Notes under the pieces: model-generated
What the model saw: the letters and a program-made list of their open reading frames with translations, nothing else
Told to the model about the DNA's origin: nothing
The model's database searches: none
Source: a virus
IMG/VR virus record: IMGVR_UViG_3300045141_000278
Span: 1-30,623 of that record
DNA: 30,623 nucleotides
Reading direction: 5' to 3' (one strand)
Position numbers and translations under genes: made by a program
Shown here: piece after piece, positions 14,214 through 29,316 of the stretch
How the letters are laid out: every line of letters begins with the position of its first letter
Numbering within the stretch: the stretch's first letter is position 1

Positions 14214-14434
14214 GCGGTGCCTCCTGGGGTCTGGCTGGCGAGCCCGCGCAGGAACGCGCGGTAGCGGTGGATGGTCCGCTCGGTGACACCGAGCCGGGCG
14301 GCGGCCTGCGCGGCGGTCAGGTACGGGCCGTTGATGTTCAGGTACGCCTCGACCGTGCCGAGCATCTTGCGGTGGAGACCTCGGCTGCAGGGCTTGGCTG
14401 GCCAGGGTGCGGCGTGCAGCTGATTGCGGGTCAT
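14210..14434 (-). CDS. Small helix-turn-helix protein (74 aa)
   Basis: Starting at the ATG at 14434 (ATGA overlap with the primase stop), the protein ends in a clear HTH: Y-L-T-A-A-Q-A-A-A-R-L-G then V-T-E-R-T-I-H-R-Y-R-A-F-L as recognition helix. It is preceded by a basic N-terminal arm. Its stop overlaps the amidase start. This could be a small regulator or a sigma/transposase-type HTH adaptor acting within the operon. The fold is well supported, the target unknown. Confidence 0.7.
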   Translation of the reverse strand: MTRNQLHAAPWPAKPCSRGLHRKMLGTVEAYLNINGPYLTAAQAAARLGVTERTIHRYRAFLRGLASQTPGGTA

Positions 14435-16518
14435 GGCGTGCCTCCTGGGCTTGCCGCGGCGCCGAGCGTTCCCGGCGGCCAGCAGTTCGGGTGGATGGTG
14501 TCCCCGGCGGCGGCCAGCACCGGATCCAGTGACTGTCCGCAACTGGCGCACGGGACCGGCGTAGCGGATGTAGCGGATGTAGCGGATCCCTTACCAGGGG
14601 TATCTAGAGCGTCGTCGGATGCCTGAGCCCTATCTAGATCACTTCCCATAAATGCCCCATCAGAGGACAATGCGGGCAAATACCTGGCCCACGGGTCGTG
14701 CAGGTCGGTGCGCTGGTAGCCCTTCGGCACCGAATCACCGATCCTCACGTTCTGTGACCGGACCCCGTACTGCCGCAGCCGGGAAGCCAGGCCGCGGGCG
14801 TCGAGCGGCTTGCCCTTCAGGTCCGCCCAGGGCGCCTCCTCCATGCCGCGCAGCCCGGCGAGGATGGCCTCGGTGGACATCGCGGCCTCGTCGCCGAACA
14901 CCTCGCGCAGGTCCGCCAGCAGCCGGACGCCGAGGCTAGGTGGGGCTGCACGAGCAGCCGCTACAAGCGCTACAGCCGCTACACGGGCGCGGTCGGGCCA
15001 CTCCCCCCCGGCGGCGTCCGCGACGGCCAGCAGGGCCTCCCAGACGTCGGCGTTGCGGTCCGCTATCCCGTCCGGCATGGCGGGCCAGCTGCCGCTCAGC
15101 GCGCTCACCATGGCCGCCCCCCACGCAGCCAGCTGGTCCCGCAGCGCGTTCCCGTCGTGCTTGTGGACGCGGCGGCGGAACGGCTCAACCTGCTCATCAG
15201 GTGACCGGCGCCGCATGCGCACCACCACAGCGCGCGAAAGAAGCGTCTCGGGCAGGTCACCGAGCCCGGCCAGGGCCACGGCGCAGTAGGCGGGCAGCTC
15301 CTCGGTCTCGATGTTCTTGCCCTTGATGACGCACCGCCCGGCCACGGCGCCGCGGCGGTGCCCGGCGTTGAGCAGCCCGCGGATCTCCTCGTTGTCCTTC
15401 GCCGTGCGCGGCCCGAACACAGTGTCGATCTCGTCGTAAAGGATGGTCGGGAGGCCGTCCGGGTCGGCCACCTTGCGGAACAGGTAGGCGGGCGTGGTGT
15501 TGATGGCCTCCACGGCGCGGGGGACCAGCAGCTCGCTGACCTCCAGGGCACGCGTCTTGCCCGACCCCGGCTCGGGTGACAGGAACGCGATGCGCGGCGT
15601 GGATTCCCAGGCGTCCATGAGGTGGGCATGGGCTATCCACAGGGTGTGCGCGACGCGGGCCGCCTCGGACGGGTAGGCCACGAACCGGCCCAGGAACGCG
15701 TAGACATCATCGAGCAGGGCGCGGCCATCCACAGTCCGCCGGGGCGGCCCGGACCCGTTGCTGCCGGGGATGAGCGCGGCCAGGCTGTGACCGGCGGCCA
15801 GGTGGTCCGATGCGTCCTTGCCCGCGGCGACCGCGCCGATGACGACGGACTTGGCCACGGCCCGCAGGAGGCCAGCGACCGCGGCGGCGTGCTTGCGGCC
15901 GGGCTCATCGTCGTCGGGGATGATGACGACGTCGGCCCCCGCGAAATGGCGGCTGTATTCGTCCCGCCATTTCCCCGCGCCGCCTGGGCTGGTCGTGGCA
16001 ATGGCCCCGGCGCGCTCCAGGGAATGGACGTCCTTTTCGCCCTCGGCAATCCAGACCGTTCTCCCCTCAGCCACCGCGCGGATGACGGCGGGCAGCCGGT
16101 AGGGGACGCGGCGGACCCCGGCGAGATTCCAGCGCCACCCGGATTTCGTGCCAGGGTCCGGGTGGCGCTGGGGGAACTGCTTGTCCGCGGTCCGCAGCAC
16201 CTGGAACAGCAGGGTGCCGTCCTCGGCGGTGTAGTCGTAGACGGTGATGGCGGGGCCGCGGGGCGTCCATTCACCCTGGCCGGGCTGCTCACTGCGCGGC
16301 GCGCTGACGTCGGCGAGGGACAGGCCCAGGGCGTCCAGGATGGCGTCCCGCGTGCACCCGGCGTGGCACTTGAATACCACGGGCTGATCTGTCCCGCGGG
16401 TGACTGAGAGGCTGGCTTCCCTGTCCTCGTGGGCGGGGCACCGGGCCATCCAGTAGCCGCCTTGCTGGCGGACCCCGTCAAGCTTGCCGAGTACCAGGCC
16501 CAGTGCGTCATCATCCAC
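14431..16518 (-). CDS. Primase-helicase: CHC2 zinc finger, TOPRIM and DUF3631 ATPase
   Basis: This is the element's replication protein. Residues 27-55 form a CHC2 primase zinc finger (C-P-A-H-E-D, then K-C-H-A-G-C). A TOPRIM domain follows, with I-A-E-G-E-K-D (157-163) and P-D-D-D-E-P-G (201-207) for metal binding. A P-loop ATPase comes next, with E-P-G-S-G-K-T (316-322) and Walker B Y-D-E-I-D (361-365). The region at about 450-640 matches the DUF3631 helicase-associated domain, and a C-terminal C-A-S-C-G zinc knuckle lies after a Ser-Ala-Thr repeat. The GTG start at 16518 overlaps the nuclease gene by 8 bases. The 695-residue length fits phage and AICE proteins of this type. Confidence 0.87.
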   Translation of the reverse strand: MDDDALGLVLGKLDGVRQQGGYWMARCPAHEDREASLSVTRGTDQPVVFKCHAGCTRDAILDALGLSLADVSAPRSEQPGQGEWTPRGPAITVYDYTAEDGTLLFQVLRTADKQFPQRHPDPGTKSGWRWNLAGVRRVPYRLPAVIRAVAEGRTVWIAEGEKDVHSLERAGAIATTSPGGAGKWRDEYSRHFAGADVVIIPDDDEPGRKHAAAVAGLLRAVAKSVVIGAVAAGKDASDHLAAGHSLAALIPGSNGSGPPRRTVDGRALLDDVYAFLGRFVAYPSEAARVAHTLWIAHAHLMDAWESTPRIAFLSPEPGSGKTRALEVSELLVPRAVEAINTTPAYLFRKVADPDGLPTILYDEIDTVFGPRTAKDNEEIRGLLNAGHRRGAVAGRCVIKGKNIETEELPAYCAVALAGLGDLPETLLSRAVVVRMRRRSPDEQVEPFRRRVHKHDGNALRDQLAAWGAAMVSALSGSWPAMPDGIADRNADVWEALLAVADAAGGEWPDRARVAAVALVAAARAAPPSLGVRLLADLREVFGDEAAMSTEAILAGLRGMEEAPWADLKGKPLDARGLASRLRQYGVRSQNVRIGDSVPKGYQRTDLHDPWARYLPALSSDGAFMGSDLDRAQASDDALDTPGKGSATSATSATPVPCASCGQSLDPVLAAAGDTIHPNCWPPGTLGAAASPGGTP
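14561..14587. repeat. Three tandem copies of a 9-base repeat inside the primase gene
   Basis: GTAGCGGAT is repeated three times head to tail. It encodes Ser-Ala-Thr repeats in a linker before the last zinc knuckle of the primase-helicase. Slippage can change the copy number in frame. Confidence 0.85.
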
Positions 16519-17877: not shown

Positions 17878-18076
17878 CGCGCACCCGCCCCTCAACCGCC
17901 CAGGACGCGGCGTCATAGGCCCGGCCGAACTCCTCACGCTGGGCGGCGCTCAGCAGCACACCGGCGCTGCTGGTGCCGATGTAGACGCGGCCCGTGGCGG
18001 GCAGCGTGTCGACCTCAACGAAGTCGCCCTCGGGGGTCCGGATGGTCACCGGCCAGGCGTCAGGCACCCTCATCAC
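17870..18076 (-). CDS. Small paralogous protein A (68 aa)
   Basis: The core V-T-I-R-T-P-E-G-D-F-V-E-V-D, G-R-V-Y-I-G-T and A-A-Q-R-E-E-F-G-R-A-Y-D-A-A-S-W matches the pattern of its downstream neighbour. Possible starts are ATG at 18076 or 18073, or the GTG at 18067 that overlaps the recombinase stop; the RNA order supports coupling to that gene. It is likely a small beta-then-helix fold, with no known function. Confidence 0.6.
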   Translation of the reverse strand: MMRVPDAWPVTIRTPEGDFVEVDTLPATGRVYIGTSSAGVLLSAAQREEFGRAYDAASWAVEGRVRDG

Positions 18077-19097
18077 CGGCCTGCGGGTTCATCCGCTTGT
18101 ACTGCGCCCAGATCTCCGCCGCGGCCTTGTCCGTGTCGCCCCCGGCGGTCTCCAGCGCGTCGGTGAGCAGCGTGGTCACGTTGCGCGCATCGGCAACGGT
18201 GATGACGGCGCCCGACGGCTGGCCGGTGATCCACCGGATAAGCGCCTCGATGTCCTCGTCCGGCCCGAGCCCGATCTGGCTGATGAGGTCGCCCATCCGC
18301 TTCAGCGCGGCCTCGCTGGCAGGCTTGGGCGGCCTGGGCTCAGCGGCCTTCTGCGGGCCGCCAGCGGGCGGCTCAGGGCGCACCCACGGGTCATCCGGGT
18401 CCGGGCCGTCCAGCACCTCGACGGCCCCGGCAGGCGGCTCGCCCATGCGCCGCAGCGCGTCGTGCTCGACCCGCTGCGCGCGGGTCATCAGCCCGGCCGC
18501 GTCCTTCTCGCCCTCGGTCATCTGCGACGGGTCGATGATGCCGTCGCGCGTGGGCCAGCCGTCGTGGATGACCTCGCCGCCGTCATCGCCGCCGCCGAGC
18601 TCGTCCGGGGTGTAGGCGATGCCGAGCATGACCTCCTGGCAGGCGTCGCGGGCAACCTCGGAGACAGCGCGGGCCTTGAGCATCGGCGCCGGGTAGCGCT
18701 GCCAGTTGGTCTTGCCCAGCAGCCCGGCCTGCTTGGCGCGGTCCATCGTCCAGACGCTCTTGTAGGTGAACCCCGGGTCATCGGAGCGGGTGATCTCGGC
18801 CTGGGCCTGGTGCTCATCGCCGATGACCCGCAGCCGGTGACCGGCCCGGCGCACCAGCGCGGAGATGAGCCCGGCGGAGATGGACGGGCGCCCGTCGATG
18901 ACGTGGATGCCGGTGATGGCGGCCATGGCGGGCAGGCCCAGCAGCTCGCCGTACTCGGTGGCGAACAGGATGTTGGCGGGCTGCTTGCGGTAGGAGACGG
19001 GCAGGAGCCCGGACTCGGCCAGGAAGCGGGCGTACTCGATCTTGGCGGTGAGCGCGGGGGCCGTGCCGTCGCGGGTTGCTATCTCGGTGCTGGTCAT
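18060..19097 (-). CDS. RecT-like single-strand annealing recombinase
   Basis: The 345-residue protein belongs by pattern to the RecT-type annealing proteins of actinophages. It shows A-R-F-L-A-E-S-G-L-L-P, K-Q-P-A-N-I-L-F-A-T-E-Y-G-E-L-L-G, I-H-V-I-D-G-R-P-S-I-S-A, then W-T-M-D-R-A-K-Q-A-G and A-R-A-V-S-E-V-A-R-D-A-C. Such proteins coat single-stranded DNA and pair it with complements during recombination-dependent replication. An acidic, proline-rich linker leads to a small C-terminal helical domain (A-L-K-R-M-G-D-L-I-S-Q-I). The ATG at 19097 has AGAAGG upstream and overlaps the previous stop (TGATG). No RecE-type exonuclease is obvious beside it. Confidence 0.85.
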   Translation of the reverse strand: MTSTEIATRDGTAPALTAKIEYARFLAESGLLPVSYRKQPANILFATEYGELLGLPAMAAITGIHVIDGRPSISAGLISALVRRAGHRLRVIGDEHQAQAEITRSDDPGFTYKSVWTMDRAKQAGLLGKTNWQRYPAPMLKARAVSEVARDACQEVMLGIAYTPDELGGGDDGGEVIHDGWPTRDGIIDPSQMTEGEKDAAGLMTRAQRVEHDALRRMGEPPAGAVEVLDGPDPDDPWVRPEPPAGGPQKAAEPRPPKPASEAALKRMGDLISQIGLGPDEDIEALIRWITGQPSGAVITVADARNVTTLLTDALETAGGDTDKAAAEIWAQYKRMNPQAGDEGA

Positions 19098-19252
19098 CAG
19101 AATCCTTCTCCGCTCTCGGGGTCGGCGGCGGCCAGTGCGGCTTCGCTGAACCCCGTCTCGCAGGTGACGCACCACCAGCCAGCCACGCTGTCCTGCAGCC
19201 GCGACTCGCAGCAGGGGCAGTACCACCAGGCCGCCCCGGTCCAGGGCTTCAC
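19097..19252 (-). CDS. Zinc-ribbon micro-protein (51 aa)
   Basis: A GTG at 19252 overlaps the previous stop (GTGA), and the TGA overlaps the RecT-like start. The product holds Y-C-P-C-C-E-S-R-L-Q and, 11 residues later, W-W-C-V-T-C-E-T-G, a compact four-cysteine zinc ribbon, then an acidic tail. It is clearly co-translated with the recombinase and may assist it. That link is inferred from position. Confidence 0.65.
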   Translation of the reverse strand: MKPWTGAAWWYCPCCESRLQDSVAGWWCVTCETGFSEAALAAADPESGEGF

Positions 19253-19515
19253 GCCTCACCGTCCGGGGTGCAGATGAACGCGTGCGCCTCGCAGGTGTAC
19301 AGCCGGAAGTGGCCGCCGGGCAGGTAGTGCCAGAAGCACCCGCACTCGCCCCCGCCGCGCGGCAGGTCCAGGTCGTCAAGCTCGGACTCAGCCCGGTCGT
19401 GGTCCTCCAGCAGCCGCTCCAGGCGCACGGCGCGGCACAGGCCGGTGAGGGCGGCGGTCACCAGGACGGCGGCGGCGATGCCCACGAGGACCAGGCACAC
19501 GCCCGTCGTCGTCAT
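19249..19515 (-). CDS. Membrane-anchored small protein with cysteine/histidine tail (88 aa)
   Basis: One N-terminal transmembrane helix (about residues 5-27, V-C-L-V-L-V-G-I-A-A-A-V-L-V) precedes a charged helix (L-E-R-L-L-E-D-H-D-R-A-E-S-E-L-D-D-L-D). A tail with E-C-G-C-F-W-H-Y, L-Y-T-C-E-A-H-A-F-I-C follows, a possible metal site. The start overlaps the previous stop (ATGA). It is probably a membrane-anchored cytoplasmic protein. The role is unknown. Confidence 0.6.
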   Translation of the reverse strand: MTTTGVCLVLVGIAAAVLVTAALTGLCRAVRLERLLEDHDRAESELDDLDLPRGGGECGCFWHYLPGGHFRLYTCEAHAFICTPDGEA

Positions 19516-21311: not shown

Positions 21312-21809
21312 CTAGGGCGTGACGATCACCAGGTCGGTGCACGCGGCGGTGCTGGCGGCGGGGACCGTGGTAACGGATCCGGTCACCCCGAAGGCGGGGC
21401 CAGCGCACAGGATCCGGCCGGTCGACAGATCCTTGAGCTTGCCGCCGGAGAAGCTCCACAGATCCGGGGCGGAGAAGAACTCAACGCCGCCGCGGAAGTC
21501 GCTCGCGAGGTACTTCGAGTGCACGTCCGGGCGGCCGGTCCACAGGATCGTGTAGACGCCGGGGGTGACCTCGGTGAGCGCGAACGAGGTGCTGCTCTCG
21601 GAGCCGGTCTGCTGCGTGAACTTCGTGAAGTCAGACGAGGCCGGGTGCTCGGCGGGCCTGGGACCGAAGGCCGAGAGGAATGCGTCCCCGGCGACGGTGC
21701 CGAACGTGCCCTCGGGGACGCTGGCCGCGCCCGCGGGCGCAGCGGCGGCGAGGGCCAGGGCCAAGCACGCGAAGCCAGCGGCTCCCAGCGTGGGAATGCG
21801 CTTAAACAT
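21312..21809 (-). CDS. Secreted protein downstream of the repressor (165 aa)
   Basis: A classical signal peptide occupies residues 1-29: basic M-F-K-R, hydrophobic core, A-G-A-A-S cleavage region. The mature part of about 135 residues is rich in Ser/Thr and beta-strand patterns (G-V-Y-T-I-L-W-T-G-R-P, G-G-V-E-F-F-S-A-P-D-L-W-S-F) with two cysteines (I-L-C-A-G, A-A-C-T-D) that may form a disulphide. It starts 53 bases after the repressor stop and ends before a hairpin, so it should be made in the lysogen. This is the typical position of a lysogenic-conversion gene. Its activity is unknown. Confidence 0.7.
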   Translation of the reverse strand: MFKRIPTLGAAGFACLALALAAAAPAGAASVPEGTFGTVAGDAFLSAFGPRPAEHPASSDFTKFTQQTGSESSTSFALTEVTPGVYTILWTGRPDVHSKYLASDFRGGVEFFSAPDLWSFSGGKLKDLSTGRILCAGPAFGVTGSVTTVPAASTAACTDLVIVTP

Positions 21810-21862
21810 GAGTTCCCGCTCTCTGTTGGTTAGTGATTGCTAGGCGGCAGCCGCGCTGCGCT

Positions 21863-22135
21863 CTACGACGCCTCGGCCGTGGCGTCCGATCCGATCAGCC
21901 AGCCGTACGACACCCCGGTCCGCAGAGCCCACAGACGCAGCGTCCGGGTGTCCGGCTCGATGCGCCCGCTGGTCCAGTTGGAGACAGAGGCGCGGCTGAC
22001 GTCGAGGTACTCAGCCATGTCCGCGGAGCCGATCCCCGCGTCCCGCATGGCCTTGCGCATGCGGTCAGCCAGGTCGAACTCGGGCGTGGTGCCGCCCTCG
22101 CCGAAAACCGCCGGGGCGGGAAATTGACTTTCCAT
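21863..22135 (-). CDS. XRE-family repressor, leftward member of a paralogous pair (90 aa)
   Basis: A five-helix XRE DNA-binding domain is visible: D-L-A-D-R-M-R-K-A-M-R-D-A-G, then M-A-E-Y-L-D-V-S-R-A-S-V-S-N-W as the HTH, and the conserved G-R-I-E-P-D-T-R-T-L-R-L-W-A-L. It has no C-terminal LexA-type peptidase, so it is unlikely to respond to DNA damage by self-cleavage. The ATG at 22135 lies 6 bases from a -10-like CACAAT, so the message may be leaderless; an in-frame ATG further upstream would run through the operator. It is followed by the secreted-protein gene. It is the best candidate for the lysogenic repressor, although its divergent paralog could also fill that role. Confidence 0.85.
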   Translation of the reverse strand: MESQFPAPAVFGEGGTTPEFDLADRMRKAMRDAGIGSADMAEYLDVSRASVSNWTSGRIEPDTRTLRLWALRTGVSYGWLIGSDATAEAS

Positions 22136-22141
22136 TCGCAA

Positions 22142-22217
22142 ATTGTGACACGCACGCAAGGGCGTTGGCAAGCCCTGTGGGCCAGGGTCTTGCCAACGCT
22201 TAACCAACGTGTAACAG
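22142..22217. promoter_or_regulatory. Divergent leaderless promoters with a shared inverted-repeat operator
   Basis: GCGTTGGCAAG (22162-22172) and CTTGCCAACGC (22189-22199) form a perfect inverted repeat, extended inward by CCCTG/CAGGG with one bulged base. Each arm contains a -35 box TTGCCA: rightward at 22190-22195 with -10 TAACAG at 22212-22217 (spacer 16), leftward at 22171-22166 with -10-like CACAAT at 22147-22142 (spacer 18). Both -10 boxes end 6-7 bases before an ATG. A further CCAACG half-site lies at 22204-22209. A repressor bound here would block both polymerases. Confidence 0.8.
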
Positions 22218-22224
22218 TTTGCTT

Positions 22225-22545
22225 ATGACAGAGCAGCCAGCCCCCCCGCAGGCGCTCCCCCAGTGGGACGTCGCTGACCGTCTCCGCAAAGCCCTCCGCC
22301 ACGCCGGTGTCGGCCCTACCGAGATGGCCGACTACCTCGGCGTCTCGCGCCAGAGCGTCGGCAACTGGATGACCGGGCGCATCGAGCCATCACTGCAGAC
22401 GCTCCGGCTGTGGGCGCTGCGGTGCGGCGTGAGCTACGAATGGCTCGTGGGTGACCGCGATTTTAGAAGGCGGGGGGCGCCATTCAGAAGAGCACGTTCT
22501 TTGACCTCAAGAATCCGGGCAATTCACCGTACATTGGCCGCATGA
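22225..22545 (+). CDS. XRE-family repressor, rightward member of the paralogous pair (106 aa)
   Basis: The domain D-V-A-D-R-L-R-K-A-L-R-H-A-G ... M-A-D-Y-L-G-V-S-R-Q-S-V-G-N-W ... G-R-I-E-P is about 64% identical by hand alignment over 66 residues to the leftward protein. A basic C-terminal extension (R-D-F-R-R-R-G-A-P-F-R-R-A-R) is unique to this copy. The ATG at 22225 lies 7 bases after TAACAG, indicating a leaderless message; a TTG six bases earlier is less likely. It precedes the integrase on the same strand. The arrangement suggests a Cro-like or integration-linked regulator that competes for the same operator. Confidence 0.85.
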   Translation: MTEQPAPPQALPQWDVADRLRKALRHAGVGPTEMADYLGVSRQSVGNWMTGRIEPSLQTLRLWALRCGVSYEWLVGDRDFRRRGAPFRRARSLTSRIRAIHRTLAA

Positions 22546-22615
22546 GTGACAAGCGCAGACGTTTGCATTACTCTCACTTTGCACCCCGCGCTGCACACAG
22601 GAAACATCAGGGCCG

Positions 22616-23461
22616 ATGCCTACTGAGAAGCACCTGGAATACCTGCGCCTGTCCGGTCACACGGCCACGTCGGTCTACGCGCGAAAACGCGCGCTGGCCC
22701 GCATGGCCGCCGTCCTTGCCGTCCCTCTGCTGTCGGCCACCGCGGCCGACCTTGCCGCCTGGCGCGCGTCGCTGACCACCGGCGACGCGGCCACCGTCGC
22801 CTACGTCAGCCACGCGCGCAGCTTCTACGCCTGGGCGGTTGACCAGGGGCTCATCGAGTCGAACCCGGCCGCGAACCTGCCCGTGCCCCGGCTGGGCCGC
22901 CGCATCCCCCGCCCCATCGCCGAGGACGACCTGATGTACGCCCTCGCCGCCGCGCCCCGCCGTGTCCGCGCCTGGCTGGTGCTGGCCGCCTGGTGCGGTT
23001 TACGGGCACGGGAGATCGCGCTGCTGCGGCGGGAGAACATACTGGAGACCGCCTCGCCGCCTGTCCTGATCGTGGCCGCCGATGCCACTAAGGGCCACAG
23101 TGAGCGGGTTATCCCGCTGTCGGCGTTCGTCCTTTCCGAGCTGGCCGCCGCGCGGCTGCCCACTAGCGGGTACGCGTTCCGGCGGATGGACGGGCGGCCG
23201 GGGCCGAATGAGGCGTGGCTGGTAAGTCACCTGGCCAATAGGCACCTGCACAATTGCGGTATTACGGCCACGCTCCACCAGCTGCGGCACCGTTTCGGGA
23301 CGGCCGCGTATCACGCCAGCCGGGACCTGCGCGCGGTGCAGGAGCTACTCGGGCACCAGAACGTATCCACAACCGCTGGGTACGCGGCGTGGGACCGGGC
23401 CGCGGCGGCCGCGGCGGTGGAGGCGATTCCGGCGCCCGCCCGGCTGAGAGTGGCACAGTAG
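22616..23461 (+). CDS. Tyrosine integrase with core-binding domain (281 aa)
   Basis: This is a complete phage-integrase-family recombinase. The N-terminal SAM-like core-binding domain covers about residues 1-90. The catalytic set is intact: R130 in C-G-L-R-A-R-E, K159 in T-K-G-H, H221-x-x-R224 in L-H-Q-L-R-H-R-F, H247 in L-L-G-H-Q-N, and the nucleophile Y256 in T-A-G-Y-A-A-W. It lacks an arm-type DNA-binding N-terminal domain and is XerC/D-sized, so it may need only a simple attachment core. It likely catalyses integration of the element. It lies downstream of the rightward repressor, about 70 bases away. Confidence 0.9.
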   Translation: MPTEKHLEYLRLSGHTATSVYARKRALARMAAVLAVPLLSATAADLAAWRASLTTGDAATVAYVSHARSFYAWAVDQGLIESNPAANLPVPRLGRRIPRPIAEDDLMYALAAAPRRVRAWLVLAAWCGLRAREIALLRRENILETASPPVLIVAADATKGHSERVIPLSAFVLSELAAARLPTSGYAFRRMDGRPGPNEAWLVSHLANRHLHNCGITATLHQLRHRFGTAAYHASRDLRAVQELLGHQNVSTTAGYAAWDRAAAAAAVEAIPAPARLRVAQ

Positions 23462-24230: not shown

Positions 24231-24842
24231 ATGGCCCGCTTGACGACCAAAGGCGAGACCTTCCCCATCGAGCCGCTGACCAGCGCCGAAGTGGGGCTGC
24301 TGCTGCGCCAGTGCTCGACCACCGCACCCACCGGGATACGGAACCGGGCATTGATTACCGTCATGTACCGGGCGGGCCTGCGGGTAGACGAGGCGATCAA
24401 GATCCGGGCGCCGGACATCAACCCCGAGCGGGGCACCGTCCGGGTGCTGCACGGCAAGGGGAACAGGGCCCGGACGATCAGCATCGACGACGGGGCGGTA
24501 GCCCTGATCCAGCGGTGGATGGACCGCCGCGCCCAGCTCGGCCACCGGCAGGGCCCGCTGTTCTGCACCCTGGCAGGCACGCCGCTGTCCGCGGTGTACA
24601 TCCGGAACATGCTGCACCGCATCGGCGCCAAGGCGGGCATCGAGAAGCGCGTTCACCCGCACGGACTGCGCCATACCTACGCGATGGACCTGGCGGCCGA
24701 AGGCACGCCGGTCAACGTCATCCAGAAGCTGCTCGGCCACTCGCACCTGTCGACCACCGACGCGTACCTGCGCCATGTGGGTGACCCGGCAGTGCTGGCC
24801 GTTGGCCGTAACCGTCCGCACTGGGACCCGGAGGAGATATGA
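24231..24842 (+). CDS. Minimal tyrosine recombinase lacking a core-binding domain (203 aa)
   Basis: The catalytic domain is complete: R51 in A-G-L-R-V-D-E, K76 in G-K-G-N-R-A-R, H144-x-x-R147 in H-G-L-R-H-T-Y, H170 in L-L-G-H-S-H, and Y179 in T-T-D-A-Y-L. Only about 15 residues precede the domain, so the usual SAM-like N-terminal half is absent. An ATG with GGAAGGG upstream supports the annotated start. It is closer to XerC/D-type sequences than to the neighbouring integrase. It may act on a short site, work with a host partner, or be a derived excisionase-like or resolvase-like enzyme. Confidence 0.85.
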   Translation: MARLTTKGETFPIEPLTSAEVGLLLRQCSTTAPTGIRNRALITVMYRAGLRVDEAIKIRAPDINPERGTVRVLHGKGNRARTISIDDGAVALIQRWMDRRAQLGHRQGPLFCTLAGTPLSAVYIRNMLHRIGAKAGIEKRVHPHGLRHTYAMDLAAEGTPVNVIQKLLGHSHLSTTDAYLRHVGDPAVLAVGRNRPHWDPEEI

Positions 24843-26119: not shown

Positions 26120-26322
26120 GTCTCAGCCTTTTCGCGCCCGGCTTCTATCTCATCCAGGGCCCGGAGCATAACCAGGCAGTCATCCCTGGTGACGTTTGAC
26201 CCGGTGGCGACCATCCGCCAGTACAGGAAGATCGCCTGCGTCTCCAAGGGCAAGCCACGGACTAGATGCCGGACGGCAGCCAGGGCACGCTCCCGCTCCT
26301 GCTCGGTCATGCGCTCAGCCAT
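26116..26322 (-). CDS. Helical protein coupled to the GntR regulator (68 aa)
   Basis: Three amphipathic helices are predicted (E-R-E-R-A-L-A-A-V-R-H-L-V, T-Q-A-I-F-L-Y-W-R-M-V, C-L-V-M-L-R-A-L-D-E-I-E-A). It overlaps the end of the regulator gene by eight bases. It may be a partner or small co-regulator of the GntR-type protein. No family recognised. Confidence 0.6.
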   Translation of the reverse strand: MAERMTEQERERALAAVRHLVRGLPLETQAIFLYWRMVATGSNVTRDDCLVMLRALDEIEAGREKAET

Positions 26323-26548
26323 TGCCTTTCCCCTTCACGAACGTTCCGCGGCCCGGGACGGTGAACACCACCCCCTCGTCCCGCAGGATGTCCAGGGCCC
26401 GCTGCACCGTCCTCGGCGCCACGCCCAGCTGCTCGGCCAGGTCCACGTGCGAGGGCAGCTTTGGCCCCAGCTCCCCGGCTGCGATCTGCCCGCGGATGCG
26501 GGCGGCCACCTGCACGCGCGGCCAGTCCGGCGACTGCGGGTCGATCAT
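26315..26548 (-). CDS. GntR-family winged-helix regulator, KorA-like (77 aa)
   Basis: The whole protein is a GntR-type DNA-binding domain: R-V-Q-V-A-A-R-I-R-G-Q-I-A-A-G-E-L, the HTH D-L-A-E-Q-L-G-V-A-P-R-T-V-Q-R-A-L-D-I-L, and the wing G-V-V-F-T-V-P-G-R-G-T-F-V. There is no effector domain. GntR/KorA-type proteins repress tra genes in Streptomyces conjugative plasmids and AICEs because unregulated transfer is harmful. It diverges from the DUF2637/TraB operon, the usual site of such control. TACGGT lies exactly 6 bases before its ATG, so its message is probably leaderless. Confidence 0.87.
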   Translation of the reverse strand: MIDPQSPDWPRVQVAARIRGQIAAGELGPKLPSHVDLAEQLGVAPRTVQRALDILRDEGVVFTVPGRGTFVKGKGNG

Positions 26549-26554
26549 GCGCCA

Positions 26555-26612
26555 ACCGTAACCACCTAACCTACGTTCCGGCTAGGCAACGCACTGCACA
26601 GCAACGTACAGT
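26555..26612. promoter_or_regulatory. Divergent leaderless promoters of the transfer region
   Basis: The leftward -10 is TACGGT (26560-26555), 6 bases before the GntR start. The rightward -10 is TACAGT (26607-26612), 6 bases before the DUF2637 start at 26619. The space between holds repeated TAACC/TACG motifs that could be the regulator's binding sites. No clear -35 boxes are seen. Confidence 0.65.
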
Positions 26613-26618
26613 CAGAAC

Positions 26619-27269
26619 ATGCGTTTGTCACCCAACCGGCTCGTTTTCGTCGTCGCCGCGCTCGCTGTCGTCGCCGTCGCCGGGTTCGCGGCGGTGGTTT
26701 CCTACAGCCACTTCTTCAGCCTGGGCCGCATGCACGGCCAGGACGGCACCAGCGCGCGGCTGACGCCCCTTTCCGTTGACCTGCTGATCCTCGCCGCGTC
26801 GCTGGTCCTGCTGTGGGCCGCGCGTAACAACGTGGACGCGCCGTGGCCGATCCGCGCGGTCCTGGTCGCCTCGGTGCTGGCGACGGTTGCCGGGAACGTG
26901 GCGGACGGGCTGGCGGACGGGTGGATGGCCGCGCTGCTCAACGGCTGGCCCGGCGCTGCCTTCGTCGCCGCGATCGAGATCCTGATGTGGCTGGTCAGGG
27001 CCGCCCGCGCCGTCGCTCTCGGCGAAGCCGCCGGGCACAGTCCCGGCGTGGCGCCGGAACCGGACGGCCTGGCCGCCGCCATCGCGGCGTACGCGGCGAC
27101 GGCGGCGGCGGGCAACCCGCTGTCCCGCAACCAGCTGCAGGAGCGTTTCCGGCTGACCCGCGCGGAGGCGGCGAAGGTGTGTACCCCAGAACCCCCGGCC
27201 GGGACGGCTCTCCCCTCCCCGGAAGTGACCGTCCCGGCCGGGCTGAACGGAAGCGGCGGCCATGACTGA
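26619..27269 (+). CDS. DUF2637 membrane protein (Spd-like)
   Basis: Four transmembrane segments are visible in the N-terminal 130 residues: near 8-28, 50-66, 78-98 and 105-127. They are separated by F-S-L-G-R-M-H-G-Q-D-G and W-A-A-R-N-N. This matches the DUF2637 family, which in actinobacterial plasmids and AICEs is linked to plasmid spread between hyphae. The C-terminal 85 residues are cytoplasmic and include a small helical segment (N-P-L-S-R-N-Q-L-Q-E-R-F-R-L-T-R-A-E-A-A-K-V), HTH-like in appearance. It is leaderless and overlaps the translocase start by eight bases. Confidence 0.85.
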   Translation: MRLSPNRLVFVVAALAVVAVAGFAAVVSYSHFFSLGRMHGQDGTSARLTPLSVDLLILAASLVLLWAARNNVDAPWPIRAVLVASVLATVAGNVADGLADGWMAALLNGWPGAAFVAAIEILMWLVRAARAVALGEAAGHSPGVAPEPDGLAAAIAAYAATAAAGNPLSRNQLQERFRLTRAEAAKVCTPEPPAGTALPSPEVTVPAGLNGSGGHD

Positions 27270-29316
27270 CCGGCTGCCAGCCGTCCCCGACGATGACCTG
27301 ATCGTTGAGGGCGAGATCGTCGATGACGAGCCGCCCGCGCCGCAGCGGGCCGCCGGGACGGCGCTGGCGATCGTCGGTGACCGCCGTACGCAGTTCGCTG
27401 CCCGCCATGCCGCCTATGTCGGGCTTGGCGTCGGCGTGTTCTTCCGGCGGCTGTGGGAGTCGCGCTCGGCCACCCGCTTTGACCGATGGCTGCGCGGCGC
27501 CGAGGCCGCGGGCGACCGTGAGGGGCTGCTGGCGATCGAGGACCGGCGGGCCCGGTTCGTCAAGGACCGGCACGACCGGCGGATGGACTGGCTGGAGGTG
27601 CCGGGCAAGATCGCACGCGAGGCGATCTGGATCCTGGCCGCCGCGCTCGGCGTCCTGACCGTGATCGGCCTGGCGCTGGCGTGGCACAGTCACAGCTGGG
27701 CGGCGACGGTCGACCCGTTCGTGACGTTCGCAACGATCGTCGCCTGGCTGGTGGCCGCCGTGTCGGCCGGGTGGTTCCCGTTCCTGGTGACCGCGGCAGT
27801 CGTCTCGCTGGCGCTGCTGTGGACACTGGGCCGCCGTCACGCCCGCGGCATGACCTCGGGCTGGCTGGCGCCGAACCAGGAGGAGATCGGCGTCGTGGTC
27901 ACCGCGGACGGGATCGTGGTGGCCCTGCAGTACCTGCCGGTGGCCGAGATGCGGCGGGCGTTCAAGGACAACTGGGTGCCGACGTTCCACCAGACCCCGG
28001 TGCTGGACGGCCAGGGCTACTCGGCGGTGTTCTCCCTGCCGTACGGGGTGACGCCGCAGATGATCGCCGACCAGCGGGCGGTGCTCGCCCGCAACCTGCA
28101 CCGCGCCGAGGTCGAGGTCTGGCCGGGCGACGCGGAGAAGGGCGGCGTTGGCCCGGCCGGGTTCGTCTCAATGTGGGTGGCCAACAAGGGTGCCCTGTCC
28201 CGCCCGGCGCCGGAGTATCCCCTGCTGCACGAGGGCAAGGCGGACGTGTTCGAGGGCGTCCCGGCCGGGGTCAGCCCCCGCGGCGATGTGATCACGCTGC
28301 CCGTGGTCAGCAATAACTTCGTGGTCGGCGGCCAGATGGGCCAGGGCAAGTCGAACGCCTGCCGCGTCGTCCTGCTCGGCGCCGCGCTGGACCCGCTGGC
28401 CGAGCTGTGGGTGCACGTCCTGGCGTACAACGGCGACTTCGACGCCTACGCCCCGCGGCTGGCCCGGTACGTCAAGGGTGCCGAGGACGAGCACGTAGAG
28501 GCCGCGGTGGCCAGCCTCGATGAGCTGTATTCCGAGGTGGCCCGCCGGGAAGCACGGCTGGCTGAGCTGGGCGCGAAGAAGGTAACCCGCGGCCTGGCTC
28601 AGCAGAACGCTGACCTGCGGCCCCGGCTGGCCCTGTTCTCCGAGTGCCATGAGATGTTCGGGCACCCGAAGCTGGGCACCGAGGCCGCCGACCTGGCCGC
28701 GTCGGTGCTTCGCCGGGCGCGCAAGGCGGCGGTATGGCTGGGCTTCGACACGCAGTCCAGCCGCAAGGACGCCATTCCGCCGAAGGTCGTCGAGCTGGTC
28801 AGCGTGAACGCCTGCTTCTACGTGAAGTCGTGGCGCTCGAACGACGGCTTCCTGGGTGACGGCTCGTTCGCCGCGGGCATCCGGGCGACGGAGCTGCGGC
28901 CGGGCCGGGACCGCGGCACGTCGCTCATCACGGGCGTGTCCGATGCCCAGTTCGAGCTGCTGAAGTGGCACTTCATCGAGGTCAACGACGACACGGGCTA
29001 CGACGCCGCGGCCGAGGTGATCGAGCGCGCGGTGGCGAAGGCGAAGCCGGGCGTGCTGTCCGGCTCTGCACCGGCGCCCGCTGAGGCCCGGGATCTGATG
29101 GCCGACCTGATCGAGGTGGCCGGGCACGAGCGCGTCCGGCTGGCTGACCTGCCTGCGCGGCTGCGCGAGCTGGCCCCGGGTTGCCGCGAGTACCGGACGC
29201 TGACCGGCGCGGCGCTGCGCGACCTGCTCGAGGACCGCGGCGTGCGCGTGACCAACACCGGCAACGTGCCGAGGCTGAACCCGGACGACCTGCACCGGGC
29301 GCTCGCCAGTGAGTGA
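27262..29316 (+). CDS. FtsK/SpoIIIE-type DNA translocase, TraB/TraSA-like
   Basis: This 684-residue protein is the conjugative transfer pump of the AICE type, which moves double-stranded DNA between mycelia without relaxase or type IV secretion. Two to three transmembrane helices (about 121-141, 153-190) anchor the ring. The FtsK domain has Walker A G-Q-M-G-Q-G-K-S (K363) and the Walker B region L-A-L-F-S-E-C-H-E (E461). The C-terminal region (about 600-684) resembles a winged-helix DNA-recognition domain (R-L-A-D-L-P-A-R-L-R-E-L, A-L-R-D-L-L-E-D-R-G-V-R-V). The start overlaps DUF2637, giving a tra-spd operon. Identification as TraB-like is strong; the DNA target is unknown. Confidence 0.9.
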   Translation: MTDRLPAVPDDDLIVEGEIVDDEPPAPQRAAGTALAIVGDRRTQFAARHAAYVGLGVGVFFRRLWESRSATRFDRWLRGAEAAGDREGLLAIEDRRARFVKDRHDRRMDWLEVPGKIAREAIWILAAALGVLTVIGLALAWHSHSWAATVDPFVTFATIVAWLVAAVSAGWFPFLVTAAVVSLALLWTLGRRHARGMTSGWLAPNQEEIGVVVTADGIVVALQYLPVAEMRRAFKDNWVPTFHQTPVLDGQGYSAVFSLPYGVTPQMIADQRAVLARNLHRAEVEVWPGDAEKGGVGPAGFVSMWVANKGALSRPAPEYPLLHEGKADVFEGVPAGVSPRGDVITLPVVSNNFVVGGQMGQGKSNACRVVLLGAALDPLAELWVHVLAYNGDFDAYAPRLARYVKGAEDEHVEAAVASLDELYSEVARREARLAELGAKKVTRGLAQQNADLRPRLALFSECHEMFGHPKLGTEAADLAASVLRRARKAAVWLGFDTQSSRKDAIPPKVVELVSVNACFYVKSWRSNDGFLGDGSFAAGIRATELRPGRDRGTSLITGVSDAQFELLKWHFIEVNDDTGYDAAAEVIERAVAKAKPGVLSGSAPAPAEARDLMADLIEVAGHERVRLADLPARLRELAPGCREYRTLTGAALRDLLEDRGVRVTNTGNVPRLNPDDLHRALASE

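Follow-up and report, generated by a model that had tools for sequence, protein, structure and literature searches.

The divergent genes P0001 and P0002 probably form the integration-dependent immunity switch of a temperate phage of actinobacteria, in which a repressor homologue in the Cro position competes for one symmetric operator. The window analysed was the whole 30,623-nt stretch of virus record IMGVR_UViG_3300045141_000278, which may be a fragment. This reading is based on the two proteins, the palindrome, a family-wide promoter spacing, the repressor-integrase order, and the C-terminal tag with its strong association, in relatives, with an adjacent integrase. Degradation, the position of attP, binding by both proteins and toggle behaviour are proposed, the steps from degradation onwards by analogy with the family. 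The features are listed in Table 1.

Table 1. Features of the P0001-P0002 region and neighbouring genes in the window.
Feature	Positions	Strand	Description	Basis
Primase/helicase-like gene	14431-16518	-	DUF3631; same strand as P0001	
RecT-like annealing protein	18060-19379	-	downstream of P0001, same strand	
P0001	21863-22135	-	XRE protein of 90 aa; Cro/Xis position	phrog_2328 match, sequence comparison
P0001 promoter (predicted)	22142-22171	-	TTGCCA 22171-22166, 18 nt, CACAAT 22147-22142, 6 nt, ATG	
Putative shared operator	22162-22199	no strand	perfect 11-bp inverted repeat	sequence
P0002 promoter (predicted)	22190-22218	+	TTGCCA 22190-22195, 17 nt, AACAGT 22213-22218, 6 nt, ATG	
P0002	22225-22545	+	106-aa XRE repressor with C-terminal tail	phrog_2328 match, AlphaFold model
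P0002 tail	22459-22542	+	follows the HTH; GC3 43% vs 86% in HTH, GC 54%	
-TLAA codons	22531-22542	+	ssrA-like tag (predicted)	sequence; tag/integrase association in relatives
Tyrosine integrase	22616-23461	+	281 aa	PF00589, phrog_1

Pairwise protein alignment of P0001 and P0002 gave 43/65 identical residues (66%) and 83% similarity, in agreement with the paralogy claimed in an earlier sequence-only reading of this DNA (about 64% over 66 residues). Both proteins matched the phage repressor family phrog_2328 over the HTH (E 8e-18 for P0001, 2e-20 for P0002), and the annotated immunity repressors matched were those of Phayonce, Hibiscus, BigNuz and Purky. Immunity repressors of cluster P mycobacteriophages and of Gordonia phages, adjacent to tyrosine integrases, are among the annotated relatives in phrog_2328. 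P0002 was placed in a family of actinophage repressors of integration-dependent immunity (mycobacteriophage clusters G/I/N/P and some Gordonia phages). In a domain search both scored HTH_3 as single-domain proteins with HTH matches only. The S24 peptidase (LexA/CI self-cleavage) domain was absent from P0001 (90 aa) and P0002 (106 aa), as that reading had also stated. The AlphaFold model of P0002 had high confidence in the HTH helices and low confidence in the tail; its closest solved folds were HTH domains of phage, ICE and related repressors, including Cro. P0001 ends ...GSDATAEAS, without tail and without tag.

The ATGs of the two genes are 89 bases apart, a distance put earlier at 80 bases. 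Between them lie the arms GCGTTGGCAAG (22162-22172) and CTTGCCAACGC (22189-22199), perfect and separated by a 16-nt spacer. The inner symmetry described earlier was confirmed as CCCTG/CAGGG, one base out of register. This repeat was found once in the 30,623-base record. Other exact 11-bp inverted repeats within 40 nt occurred at about seven places in the 70% GC window, so the repeat is by itself unremarkable and weak evidence. What is remarkable is its position, exactly over the two mirrored promoters. TTGCCA lies in both arms, and the operator-like symmetric site spans both -35 boxes, as had been proposed. The P0001 promoter on the minus strand was the sole sigma-70-like match in 21800-22700, where 0.1 was expected. 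The likeness of the two mirrored half-regions reaches beyond the repeat to the -10 boxes and ATGs (shuffle p = 0.0034). A search for further operator copies dispersed in the window gave none above chance.

Given the palindrome and the partly kept recognition helices, the site may be bound by both P0001 and P0002. The helices read RQSVGNWMT and RASVSNWTS; R, S-V and N are kept and several exposed positions differ, so binding may not be common to one site. From the promoter spacing, leaderless transcripts are plausible for both genes. The compact switch suggested earlier was likewise judged plausible, with mutual repression as its mode.

Promoter layout was compared in 42 repressor-family members besides the window, taken from viral contigs, genomes and phage records. 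A start was scored as leaderless when it read TTG, 16-19 nt, xAxxxT, 5-7 nt, ATG. This pattern stood at the repressor start in 29/42 relatives; over every ATG of that DNA its frequency was 1.3%, which makes the promoter layout strong evidence. Where it was present, the TTG hexamer lay 35-37 nt and the xAxxxT hexamer about 12 nt 5' of the repressor ATG. Both genes had the pattern in 16 of the 27 relatives with a repressor-Xis pair, a generous count in which several ATGs were tried per gene. The geometry of L004 and L014 was near that of the window (ATG gaps of 90 and 92 against 89; 19 and 21 bases between the -35 boxes against 18). Mirrored leaderless promoters are thus a family property, and their uniqueness to the window was rejected. 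The leaderless, symmetric starts of the sequence-only reading stood, each ATG lying 6 nt past a -10-like hexamer, as a pattern not special to this DNA.

GTGCAA/TTGCAC was found near the promoter boxes in 15/29 upstream regions of the relatives (1.1 expected). GACACGC/GCGTGTC occurred in 11/29 regions 5' of their repressors (0.5 expected). Both are candidate family operators (e.g. L004, L007, L028, L112). The window has its own palindrome in place of the relatives' GTGCAA/TTGCAC.

Opposite the repressor, most of the 42 relatives have a divergent Xis/MerR-like HTH gene. A search for the paired architecture in other actinobacterial prophages had been suggested earlier; among the relatives the mirrored promoters were common, but a second repressor-family gene opposite the repressor was found in 0/42. 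No second repressor place was found in 140 phage records with P0001 as query or in 91 with P0002 (one match each), and each of the 17 genomes with a family member gave one match only. The unusual feature of the window is a repressor homologue as partner, in place of the Xis/MerR-like gene. P0001 is Cro-like by position and a stable-type repressor homologue by sequence.

P0001 was also the sole Xis-profile match in the window, at a weak E of 4.6e-5. Phage Cox/Xis proteins that also repress exist, and the gene in this place is Xis/MerR-like in most relatives; P0001 could on these grounds double as excisionase (recombination directionality factor) besides repressing. This was considered highly improbable, P0001 being clearly repressor-like (repressor profile E 6e-37). 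The Xis match is probably just the shared HTH, and an Xis gene could lie elsewhere, in genome sequence that the record lacks.

The repressor of viral contig L002 shares 74% identity with P0001, and P0002 shares 66%. In the tree P0001 was placed with L002 (support 89/86); a P0001+P0002 clade was not rejected (p 0.145). Since another phage's repressor is at least as close to P0001 as P0002 is, in-place duplication is unproven, and the earlier description of the pair as duplicated regulators is not established. A recent in-place inverted duplication was unsupported, with P0001 closer to L002 and synonymous divergence not clearly below that to other phages. In-place duplication, an older duplication and acquisition from another phage are all possible origins. 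The identity and tree values, and the lack of a degradation tag, favour P0001 as an additional repressor, acquired and of separate specificity (e.g. for heteroimmunity against related phages, or as a stable establishment repressor), and not a Cro-like competitor. We hold this to be quite unlikely, because P0001 occupies the Cro/Xis place, leads the early-gene strand and shares the palindrome at its promoter with P0002.

P0001 is the first gene on the strand carrying RecT and primase. The next gene on that strand (21312-21809) encodes a 165-aa protein that looks secreted, its start resembling a signal peptide; no family match was found for it. On the other side, the integrase is co-oriented with P0002 and is the next gene, 70 bases away. 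It ends -RLRVAQ, without an obvious proteolysis tag; in our judgement such a signal in the integrase is an accessory feature of BPs, not needed in every member. Its two viral relatives (L012, L013) sit just behind repressors ending -ISAA and -AVAA. No relatives of it at E 1e-50 were found in 346 class-level genomes.

A second tyrosine recombinase, consisting of the catalytic domain only (203 aa; 24231-24842), lies 0.8 kb beyond the first. At 26315-29316 are a GntR regulator, a DUF2637 (Spd-like) membrane protein and an FtsK/SpoIIIE-like protein, a set similar to the transfer module found in integrative conjugative elements of actinomycetes. The same record carries phage capsid, protease, portal and terminase genes; no tail genes were identified in it. 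With a transfer-like module in the right 4 kb, the integrase gene order may differ from that of a typical phage.

P0002 ends -IHRTLAA, which is ssrA-like. Among the relatives, the repressor ended AA/VA in 8/8 with a downstream integrase (L002, L004, L005, L009, L010, L016, L120, L123) against 1/34 without (Fisher p 1.3e-6 for the uncorrected table, with the sequences' kinship not corrected for). The automatic rule gave 7/7 and missed L004, whose integrase frame overlaps. The integrase of L002 is 1.3 kb off, and the one AA/VA end among the 34 is that of L014. Tagged repressors without a directly adjacent integrase were those at L014:3980-4252 (-LGAAA) and L002:3028-3312 (-GLAA).

In 17 of the 34 integrase-less relatives (L015, L017, L021-L024, L029-L031, L112, L113, L115, L117-L119, L122, L124) the repressor frame enters a host tRNA on the opposite strand (Lys, Arg, Asn or Thr), as expected of a prophage junction. 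These are likely to be prophages with integration-dependent immunity, in many actinobacterial genera, and their frames running into tRNAs would be the shortened prophage form of the repressor. Tag/integrase coupling and repressor-tRNA junctions appear widespread, in Rhodococcus, Promicromonosporaceae, Tessaracoccus, Brevibacterium, Mycobacterium and other actinobacterial prophages. From the tag association, the tRNA junctions and the neighbours of the integrase relatives, the window looks like the viral (unintegrated) arrangement. The sequence-only reading had concluded that induction must differ from the LexA-like route. It was right that a cleavage domain is lacking, but it missed the tagged repressor-integrase cassette; with the integrase as next gene and the -TLAA end, control is likely to be by integration plus proteolysis, a known mechanism.

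In mycobacteriophage BPs and its relatives the repressor gene contains attP. Its product is longer in the viral form and is degraded via an ssrA-like tag, and in the prophage form it is shorter, stable and active (PMC4557955). Integration-dependent immunity was predicted for Gordonia phages, for some of them on the strength of the tag only, no attP being known (PMC5559632), and has been proposed as a simple, ancestral phage genetic switch (PMC9635641). P0002 would be expected to be degraded through its C-terminal tag in the unintegrated genome. Its third-position GC drops past residue 78 (Table 1), and the tail DNA is at 54% GC in a window of 70%. This composition fits a frame reading through DNA that was not shaped as ordinary coding sequence.

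The P0002 tail together with the gap at 22546-22615 is the candidate attP region. No tRNA T-arm was found in the P0002 3' region or in the gap to the integrase, and an Rfam scan there gave nothing credible. No convincing attB for tail and gap was found in about 700 actinobacterial genomes (396 phylum-wide, 347 order-level). The search gave short matches only, of which one 19-mer was common to four orthologous ABC-transporter genes, at about chance level. A lysogen of the window's phage was not found. As neither a T-arm nor a credible attB was recovered, we infer the position of attP. Both results, the -RVAQ end of the integrase, the differences between the two recognition helices, and the tagged L014 and L002 repressors without a directly adjacent integrase are points against the preferred reading.

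A simple lambda/434-like CI-Cro toggle, with both regulators competing for one operator, the integrase acting elsewhere and the -LAA end accidental or for general turnover only, would be in keeping with an attP not found in P0002. It is also consistent with the symmetric operator-like site, the homologous divergent regulators, the HTH_3 scores of both proteins, and the match of the P0002 model to phage repressor and Cro HTH folds. It is nevertheless doubtful: against it stand the tag/integrase association among relatives, the placing of the integrase directly after the repressor, and the shift in base composition within the tail.

Under integration-dependent immunity, both promoters would fire early after infection and give leaderless transcripts. 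Tagged P0002 would be unstable, so that the leftward early operon headed by P0001 would stay on. P0001 would accumulate and, by way of the shared operator, keep the promoter of P0002 and the integrase repressed, leading to lytic growth. In this P0001 would probably be Cro-like, competing for the operator over both -35 boxes. If the adjacent integrase brought about integration within or shortly after the 3' end of P0002, the tail would be lost and the repressor that remained would be stable. Tail-less P0002 would then shut off the P0001 operon. We put forward more tentatively, as possible but short of probable, that degradable and stable versions of one DNA-binding domain face each other across the symmetric operator, that proteolysis and integration, not differing binding specificities, decide the outcome, and that a tagless homologue has replaced the Xis/Cro gene. 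A homologous opposing regulator offers a small testable case of a two-regulator switch from one protein family.

Phage 434 CI and Cro are two homologous HTH_3-type proteins with divergent genes and a common operator. The window likewise has divergent genes for homologous HTH_3-type proteins and a putative shared operator. In 434, CI carries a C-terminal domain that cleaves itself and the operators are three-part, whereas the window shows one 38-bp palindrome and lacks a cleavage domain. With the phrog_2328 immunity repressors of Mycobacterium, Gordonia and Arthrobacter phages (Phayonce gp33, Hibiscus gp33, BlueFeather gp19) the pair forms one sequence family, most members having the same leaderless spacing. 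In Hibiscus and Phayonce a tyrosine integrase is the gene after the immunity repressor. Unlike the window, none of the phrog_2328 relatives examined has a second family member facing the repressor. With BPs (cluster G) and clusters I, N and P (Broussard et al., 2013; PMC4557955) the window shares an adjacent, co-oriented repressor and tyrosine integrase, an ssrA-like repressor end, an HTH repressor without a cleavage domain, a divergent small DNA-binding gene, and a palindromic (here putative) operator between the genes. It differs from them in that attP within the repressor is only a candidate and the divergent gene encodes a close homologue of the repressor, and from BPs in that the integrase has no obvious C-terminal tag. 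The immunity type, in which insertion into the host chromosome stabilises the repressor, is a known one; what sets the window apart is that the repressor is faced by its own close homologue where a different small protein is usual.
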